Below, piece by piece: positions 26,071 through 27,515 of a DNA stretch of 64,000 nt (positions are counted from its first letter, which is position 1; each line of letters starts with the position of its first letter). The notes under the pieces are model-generated. The model did not search any database, was not told the DNA's origin, and was given only the letters and a program-made list of their open reading frames with translations. A program made the position numbers and the translations under genes. Origin of the DNA: Cellulomonas sp. APG4 (lineage in GTDB: Bacteria; Actinomycetota; Actinomycetes; Actinomycetales; Cellulomonadaceae); NCBI RefSeq assembly GCF_009996735.1, contig NZ_JAACYI010000015.1, forward strand, positions 1 through 64,000, given 5' to 3'.

Positions 26071-27014
26071 GCGGCCTCCTCGACGGCCGCGACCCGGGCA
26101 CGCCAGCGCGCCTCGAGCTCGGGTGGCGCCGCGTGCGCACGGAGCAGCGCGGGATCCGCCTCGATCCGGCGGACCTCGATCGCGCCGTCGCACGGGAGGA
26201 GGGACGGGGCGACGTCGTCGGCCAGGAGGTGCGCGGTCGCGAGCCCGCACGCGTGCTCGAGCTCGGGCAGGGCTGCGGCGAGCGCGAGCCCTGCGGCGAG
26301 CCCGACGGAGGTCTCGAGTGCCGACGACACCACGACCGGCAGGCCGACCTGCTCGGCGAGCCGGAGGCATGCGCGCACGCCACCGAGCGGCTGCACCTTG
26401 AGGACGATGACGTCCGCGGCCTGCGCCCGCACCACCGCGAGCGGGTCGGCCGCGCGACGGATCGACTCGTCGGCGGCGACGGGTACGTGAGACCCGCGCC
26501 GGACGGCCGCGAGCTCCTCGACGCTCGCGCACGGCTGCTCGACGTACTCGAGCCCGCCCGCGGCTCGGTCGAGCACGCGCAGCCGTGCGCGCGCCGTGCC
26601 GACGTCCCACGCGCCGTTGGCGTCGACGCGGATGCGCCCGTCCGGACCCAGGGCGTCGCGCACGGCCTCGAGCCGCTCGACCTCGTCCACCTCGGTCTGG
26701 CCCGGCTCGGCGACCTTGACCTTCGCGGTGCGGCACCCGCCCGAGCCGCGCACGATCGCGTGCGCACGGACGCCGTCGACCGCGGGCACCGTGACGTTCA
26801 CCGGGACGCGGGTGCGCACGGGCGTGGGCCACCCCTCGTCGGCAGCCTCGACCGCAGCGGCCCACCACGCACGCGCCTCGGCGTCGTCGTAGTCCCAGAA
26901 CGGGGAGAACTCGCCCCAGCCGGCCGGGCCGCGCAGGAGCACCCCGTCGCGCTCGGTCAGGCCGCGGAACCGCGTCCGCAGGCCGACGCGGTAGACGTGC
27001 AGGTCACGACTCAC
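26067..27014 (-). CDS. menC: o-Succinylbenzoate synthase
   Basis: A 315-residue enolase-superfamily dehydratase that makes o-succinylbenzoate. The catalytic Lys pair lies in TAKVKVAE. Metal ligands are Asp in IRVDANGAWD, Glu in YVEQPC and Asp in VAADESIRR, and the second-half Lys is in VLKVQPLGG. GTG 27014 overlaps the gdx stop by 4 nt (GTGA), which makes gdx the first gene of a gdx-menC-menD operon. Confidence 0.93.
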   Translation of the reverse strand: MSRDLHVYRVGLRTRFRGLTERDGVLLRGPAGWGEFSPFWDYDDAEARAWWAAAVEAADEGWPTPVRTRVPVNVTVPAVDGVRAHAIVRGSGGCRTAKVKVAEPGQTEVDEVERLEAVRDALGPDGRIRVDANGAWDVGTARARLRVLDRAAGGLEYVEQPCASVEELAAVRRGSHVPVAADESIRRAADPLAVVRAQAADVIVLKVQPLGGVRACLRLAEQVGLPVVVSSALETSVGLAAGLALAAALPELEHACGLATAHLLADDVAPSLLPCDGAIEVRRIEADPALLRAHAAPPELEARWRARVAAVEEAA

Positions 27015-27397
27015 TCGGCCACCGTAGTCACGTCGCTCGCCGTCACGTCACCGCCCCCGCCCGCAGCGGCGGCGGCCTCGTCGCCGCCGAACAGGTGCAG
27101 CCCCACGATGCCCGCGACGATGAGCAGGATCGAGACGATCTTCCCGACCGACACGAGCTCATCCAGCCAGAGCATCCCGGCGACCGCGGTGACGACGGCG
27201 CCCACACCGGTCCACACGGCGTACGCGACCCCCACGGGGAGGGTGCGCAGGGCCCAGCCGAGGCCCGCCATCGAGAGCACGAGCAGCACGCCGAACGCGA
27301 TCGTCGGGCCGAGGCGCGTGAAGCCCTCGGACGCCTTGAGGCTCAGAGCCCAACCGGCCTCGAGCAGTCCTGACACGATGAGCACGGCCCAGGCCAT
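27011..27397 (-). CDS. gdx: SMR-family guanidinium exporter (Gdx/SugE type)
   Basis: A 128-residue four-helix small multidrug resistance protein. It follows E. coli SugE/Gdx closely: GLLEAGWALSLKASEGFTRL carries the central Glu and the Gdx-type KxxxGF, and LPVGVAYAVWTGVGAV matches helix 3. The C-terminal 20 residues (AAAAAGGGGDVTASDVTTVAE) are an extra cytoplasmic tail. Family members of this type export guanidinium in exchange for protons. ATG 27397 follows a GGGAGAGA ribosome site. Upstream lies a guanidine-II-like leader, which supports the Gdx rather than the Qac assignment. The gene overlaps menC by 4 nt. Confidence 0.9.
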   Translation of the reverse strand: MAWAVLIVSGLLEAGWALSLKASEGFTRLGPTIAFGVLLVLSMAGLGWALRTLPVGVAYAVWTGVGAVVTAVAGMLWLDELVSVGKIVSILLIVAGIVGLHLFGGDEAAAAAGGGGDVTASDVTTVAE

Positions 27398-27413
27398 GTT
27401 CTCTCCCGTCGTC

Positions 27414-27466
27414 GTGCCGGGTCGTCCCGTCACGGGTCTGGCGTCGCCTGGCCGGGCCGTCCCGGC
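27414..27466 (-). promoter_or_regulatory. Guanidine-II (mini-ykkC)-like riboswitch
   Basis: The RNA (minus strand) forms two hairpins with the class-defining ACGR loops. Hairpin 1, 27466-27451, is a perfect 6-bp stem GCCGGG/CCCGGC closed by ACGG. Hairpin 2, 27433-27414, is GTGaCGGG/CCCGgCAC (one A-G mismatch) closed by ACGA. A 17-nt linker joins them. Hairpin 2 ends 16 nt before the ATG of a Gdx-type exporter, and the ribosome site lies in that gap. A -10-like TAGCAT (27502-27497) would start a leader of ~90 nt, which also has a perfect 8-bp hairpin at 27489-27469. Guanidine-II RNAs work as paired ACGR hairpins ahead of SMR genes; ligand binding here is inferred. Confidence 0.72.
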
Positions 27467-27515
27467 GGGGGTCGCCACGACGGCGACCCGCGGTCGATGC
27501 TAGCGGCGCGCTGGC

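Follow-up and report, generated by a model that had tools for sequence, protein, structure and literature searches.

Does the short leader of an exporter gene in the 64-kb window (the whole stretch of Cellulomonas sp. APG4 DNA analysed here) carry a guanidine-II (mini-ykkC) riboswitch, or are its two hairpins a chance product of GC-rich DNA? Guanidine-II RNAs are defined by a tandem pair of GC-rich stem-loops, each capped by an ACGR tetraloop (PMC5486947) and separated by a linker of 7-40 nt (PMC7544219). A 2025 paper gives 1977 bacterial representatives and quotes a guanidine range of about 60 uM for bacterial examples (PMC12335538). A review places the class mostly in Proteobacteria and assigns guanidine-III chiefly to Actinobacteria (PMC12186494). 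Judged from sequence, it is fairly likely that the 5' leader of gdx holds an isolated, slightly divergent riboswitch of this class that would control gdx. The element is a probable but unconfirmed member: its readable structural features agree with the class, and its Rfam score and conservation do not.

Sequence comparison identifies the gene behind the hairpins as an SMR protein of the Gdx type, in line with the Gdx/SugE subtype proposed in the preliminary description. The best PDB match of its product is 6wk5, which we take to be Gdx-Clo, at 78 bits against 41 bits for EmrE. The product belongs to Pfam PF00893 (SMR), and the NCBIfam SugE model ranks first, yet stays under its cut-off (97 vs 126 bits). 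A 122-nt gap separates gdx, whose ATG start codon lies at 27397-27395 on the minus strand, from the divergent menB (start 27520 or 27529), identified by NCBIfam NF006186 at 553 bits. Read along the minus strand, this gap holds P0, P1, P2, GGGAGAG and the gdx ATG in that order, with a -10-like hexamer ahead of P0:

27497..27502, minus strand: TAGCAT, a possible -10 element, from its sequence and a similarly placed TACnnT in relatives
27469..27489, minus strand: P0, a perfect 8-bp palindrome, GGGTCGCC-GTCGT-GGCGACCC, candidate operator or leader hairpin (sequence; folds)
27451..27466, minus strand: P1, hairpin GCCGGG-ACGG-CCCGGC, 6 bp, loop ACGG (sequence; RF01068 alignment)
27435..27450, minus strand: P1-P2 linker, 16 nt (21 nt up to the P2 core), which may form a GGC-GAC-GCC mini-hairpin (sequence; folds)
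27413..27434, minus strand: P2, hairpin CGTG-A-CGGG-ACGA-CCCG-G-CACG, loop ACGA (sequence; RF01068 alignment 27468-27417; fold)
27401..27407, minus strand: GGGAGAG, Shine-Dalgarno-like, upstream of the gdx start (putative, from sequence)
27014..27397, minus strand: gdx, SMR protein of guanidine exporter type, 128 aa (PDB, NCBIfam and Pfam profile matches; stop codon 27011-27013)

If TAGCAT is the -10 element, transcription would start near 27490; a scan for consensus promoters and terminators returned no match. A coding leader was also considered, given that the gdx frame can be extended from a GTG as far up as 27478. This reading is disfavored because position 1 of both the Pfam profile and the PDB chain aligns with the ATG and a Shine-Dalgarno sequence precedes it.

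That two tandem hairpins stand before gdx is confirmed. P1 lies at 27466-27451 as first described, while P2, previously placed at 27433-27414, is one outer pair longer (27434-27413) and contains an A27430-G27417 mismatch, formerly unmentioned, between its 4-bp core (27429-27418) and an outer helix of 4 bp. Instead of 17 nt, the linker spans 16 nt if P2 is taken to begin at its outermost pair and 21 nt if it is taken to begin at its core, and the spacing from P2 to the ATG is 15 nt (20 nt from the core) instead of 16 nt. Folding predicts the closing pairs of P1 and P2 with a probability of at least 0.90, that of P2 reaching 0.90-0.98.

Comparison with the published class shows extensive agreement. 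Both GC-rich stem-loops end in ACGR tetraloops, each adjoined by the conserved helix with its G-C closing pair (GG-ACGR-CC in P1 and P2), and the linker falls within the published range by either measure. The element also precedes a gene that sequence matching assigns to the guanidine exporter type. It shares with RF01068 its tandem GC-rich ACGR hairpins, G-C closure, variable linker and closeness to a gdx/sugE start; it differs in its sub-gathering score, the internal A-G mismatch of P2 and a loop-to-loop distance of 35 nt. The claim of a mini-ykkC-like architecture in the right position before the right gene holds up, and the family model matches from end to end.

The covariance search gave a divided answer. 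RF01068 aligns with P1 and P2 over its full length at 27.5 bits and places them first among the 26 matches listed in the 3.74-Mb genome, the next reaching 22.1 bits (5.4 lower), but the gathering score of 32, an operational and non-structural criterion, is not reached. Rfam at gathering score gave no match in the window. The search itself works, since the positive controls from E. coli and Caulobacter both exceed the cut-off; in large groups of genomes, RNA searches ran with stricter filters and scored part of the candidates. Among genomes of the window's family, an RF01068 match at E<=0.01 occurs in 58 of 221 and one over the cut-off in 8 of 221, and 37 of the 68 family matches listed rank above the window element. 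In the 30 loci fetched, no SMR gene lies within about 1.5 kb of the match. The E-values are therefore too optimistic in GC-rich DNA, and the family-wide matches were rejected as support.

Position before gdx, rather than the RF01068 score, is what counts. A pattern scan for two GGACGRCC cores followed by an MxW-type start codon matched 13 of 396 genomes in the order, 6 of 396 in the phylum and 7 of 220 in the family. The backwards control matched 11, 5 and 7 (tables counted by eye), nearly as many, so most pattern matches are background. Among the 24 distinct loci, both stems form at least four pairs (G-T allowed) in three: L188, L189 and the window (L194). Each of these has an SMR gene downstream. 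The remaining 21 include one such gene, behind L192, where P1 has one broken pair. L188, L189 and L192 exceed the RF01068 cut-off.

The preliminary description had suggested that the locus may extend the class to actinomycetes. That suggestion fails, because two further families of the order already have guanidine-II elements over the cut-off upstream of SMR genes (44.9, 42.4 and 33.5 bits). A 2013 paper also lists an RF01068 prediction in Corynebacterium glutamicum at 33.5 bits, marked as unobserved in RNA-seq (PMC3890552); with RF01068 as it now stands, the control genome of this species stays below the cut-off. Absence of the class from actinomycetes is thus refuted by the printed prediction and by over-cut-off elements in a sister family, f3 (Actinomycetaceae-like, as a guess). 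What is new may be limited to its presence in the window's family; a literature search that covered few subscription papers found nothing joining mini-ykkC and Cellulomonas. Another actinomycete, Nocardia cyriacigeorgica, uses another guanidine class at this type of gene: a gdx-like leader there (L074, 1913-1984) matches the guanidine-III riboswitch RF01763 at 49.6 bits (gathering score 36).

The sister family offers the closest comparison. An RF01068 match over the cut-off occurs in 31 of 200 f3 genomes, with scores up to 44.9 bits, and an SMR gene of gdx type lies downstream in 17 of the 30 loci fetched. In an alignment of 25 f3 sequences that excludes the window, 8 of the 13 P1/P2 pairs change on both sides, and covariation is 0.221, against 0.112 when shuffled and 0.05-0.13 when slid. 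These elements (L188, L189 and some of L201-L230) share with the window the gene type, the hairpin cores and a similar distance to the start: 13-24 nt from P2 in the 15 of 17 SMR loci measured, against 20 nt from the P2 core in the window. They differ in scoring higher, in a shorter loop-to-loop distance (28-33 nt in 26 loci, against 35 nt) and in loop order, as ACGG in P1 and ACGA in P2 reverse the arrangement of most of the 25 aligned sequences. Three further f3 loci (L216, L228 and L229) have no SMR gene, and the tandem search found nothing there; they may be chance matches. A covariance model trained on the f3 elements with the window excluded (R3) gave the whole window element 20.0 bits at E 0.37, fifth of the 26 matches listed in the genome, and 12 of 59 decoy loci outscored it. 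In an unfiltered R3 scan of the window (85 matches), the two best were P2 at 21.7 bits and P1 at 17.5 bits.

A separate group of f3 loci concerns another gene. In 10 of the 30 loci fetched (L205, L207, L208, L214, L218, L220, L222, L223, L225 and L227), guanidine-II elements over the cut-off stand directly before Na/Ca-exchanger-like genes. These belong to PF01699 in all nine run against Pfam, and L208 was assigned because its start resembles that of L207. No SMR match at E<=1e-5 occurs in five of the ten genomes. Na/Ca-exchanger-like proteins are candidates for a second type of guanidinium exporter; among the papers listed by a literature search, none linked them with guanidine-II.

Relatives within the window's own family tell a different story about conservation. 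Seventy gdx leaders were compiled: the window's own, 29 loci, 38 of 39 regions (L153 was dropped, having no anchor) and two named records. L069 duplicates L063, leaving 69 distinct leaders, and L173 has only 86 nt. The set represents higher-scoring Gdx orthologues. SMR matches are present in 175 of 220 genomes; lower-scoring SMR paralogues, found in about 100 genomes, were covered by the pattern scan alone. None of the other 69 leaders has tandem ACGR hairpins, including all five from the same genus; a separate set of 80 loci, built without a known positive, likewise gave none in 80 leaders, one of them only 26 nt long. The preliminary description had named homologous leaders without both ACGR loops as evidence against the riboswitch, and the leaders examined are of exactly this kind. 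Conservation and covariation in homologous leaders were not found, and with no second tandem among these leaders covariation is undemonstrable within the family.

Several types of gdx leader occur in the family. In the same genus, L040-L044 have short leaders without P1 and P2, and menB adjoins gdx in all five. Assignment of the genus labeled g3 to Cellulomonas rests on the leader of L063 being identical to that of the named record L069. The five same-genus Gdx orthologues are 77-82% identical to the window's, against 48-51% for Gdx of L188 and L189, so the window leader did not arrive with its gene from f3. Inheritance of gdx within the genus, with menB adjoining, and the lack of the hairpins in every relative examined underlie the reading of an independent origin. 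If the element works, an independent or relict origin is likely. More specifically, it is possible, though we hold this with reserve, that a guanidine-II aptamer consisting of a 16-nt and a 22-nt hairpin arose de novo in the window's lineage, which would be a convergent origin of a metabolite sensor.

Many of these relatives carry elements of their own before gdx. A conserved RNA-like motif of the form stem-GACGGCGGnnnnTGCCACCCGG-stem is present in 54 of the 70 leaders (e.g. L048, L050, L057 and L183) and absent from the window. Alignment A1, built from 32 of the 48 distinct motif sequences in these 54 leaders, shows a single long covarying stem around GACGGCGG...CACCCGG; all eight outer-stem pairs have two-sided changes, and covariation is 0.426 against 0.153 when shuffled. 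No Rfam match to the motif was found at E<=0.5 in 15 loci (seven with the motif), nor at E<=10 in the L048 leader. It is possibly the GGAM-2 motif, for which one paper gives 129 examples in Actinobacteria, exclusively before sugE, with guanidine binding not seen (PMC7736828). Across 198 genomes of the order, the motif model R1 gave four matches, three before SMR genes of the family and one (L249) with no SMR gene nearby. A palindrome, TGGTACnnnnGTAC[CT]A, occurs in 58 of the 70 leaders (e.g. L046, L048 and L057), overlaps the -10-like TACnnT and often lies immediately upstream of the RNA motif. It is perhaps a TetR-type operator, as a guess, and together with the RNA motif may put a single exporter gene under two tiers of regulation.

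Chance is the most serious rival, namely that two GC-rich hairpins with ACGR loops happen to lie in a GC-rich leader and bind no ligand. As first cautioned, a GGG-ACGR-CCC hairpin can arise by chance in such DNA, and the window contains more copies of the single core GGGACGRCCC than expected (6 observed vs 1.96 expected, with none of 100 shuffles reaching 6). The bare relatives' leaders, the sub-cut-off RF01068 score, the many chance RF01068 matches in family genomes and a family pattern scan equal to its backwards control (7 of 220 genomes each) point the same way. The tandem itself is another matter. Defined as two stems of at least four Watson-Crick pairs with loops 22-45 nt apart, it occurs a single time in the window, counting both strands, and when the gdx leader is shuffled with its dinucleotides kept it arises in 9 of 50,000 cases; the other 69 leaders, none of which has it, yield it in 2 of 34,500 shuffles. 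Moreover, the top RF01068 match listed in the genome sits exactly before the classic target gene, and pattern loci with both stems formed precede SMR genes in three of three cases. Taken with these observations, chance is an unlikely explanation that nevertheless keeps some weight.

Two further readings would explain the leader through elements known from relatives. In one, the P1/P2 region descends by shortening or decay from the family's covarying motif, which belongs to the leader of the orthologous gene in Cellulomonas and its neighbors. P2 resembles that motif by eye (CGTGACGG...CCCGGCACG), and there is local likeness to L050 at the same gene and place. R1, however, had no match in the window leader under its filters and gave nothing convincing there with filters off (9.2 bits on P0, 5.8 bits on P2), and the best L050 alignment is no better than shuffled sequence, 201 of 300 shuffles reaching it. 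P2 as a decayed family motif was rejected on these grounds, and the reading is highly improbable. The other holds that control is exerted mainly on DNA, with P0 as an operator near the promoter and P1 and P2 incidental. Relatives do carry the palindrome TGGTACnnnnGTACCA over the -10 element, operator-like palindromes are present in 58 of 70 leaders, and the perfect 8-bp P0 follows directly behind TAGCAT, between it and P1. Yet the P0 sequence is unlike the relatives' palindrome, its 7-bp-arm core occurs at four places in the genome, and P1 and P2 would be left unexplained, which makes this account very unlikely as well.

The riboswitch reading brings with it a mechanism. In characterized members, guanidinium joins both loops via C-G pairs and favors translation (PMC5486947, PMC7544219, PMC12186494). 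The loops, closing pairs and linker of the window would allow such loop kissing. Here, guanidinium would cause the two ACGR loops to kiss and stabilize both hairpins; the stabilized hairpins would free the ribosome-binding site beside P2, and the exporter would be made as guanidine accumulates, giving a translational ON switch. That the gdx transcript starts upstream of P1, binds guanidine and is regulated in its translation is what we infer for this locus.

Predicted folds give no clear ligand switch or expression platform. The Shine-Dalgarno sequence and AUG pair with early codons despite formation of P1 and P2, and opening the start region costs 11.6 kcal/mol with both hairpins forced, against 9.0 without. 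The CCCG of the P2 3' arm is complementary to CGGG in the Shine-Dalgarno region over 4 nt, a match reached by 322 of 1,000 shuffles; in f3, a match of at least 4 nt occurs in 8 of 15 measured examples, mostly not above shuffles. The leader as a whole folds mildly better than shuffled sequence (z -1.86; 9 of 200 as good). Within P0, CCGTCGT (27483-27477) has its complement in ACGACGG (27412-27406), which lies at the Shine-Dalgarno sequence.

The window element leaves the general picture of the class in actinomycetes unchanged, and the A1 motif and the exchanger-linked guanidine-II elements may outweigh it in importance. If functional, it would be one isolated occurrence of a very small guanidine sensor in a family whose remaining examined members carry other elements before gdx. 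It would then show how freely the class is gained or lost, and would offer a test case for the independent origin of a riboswitch.
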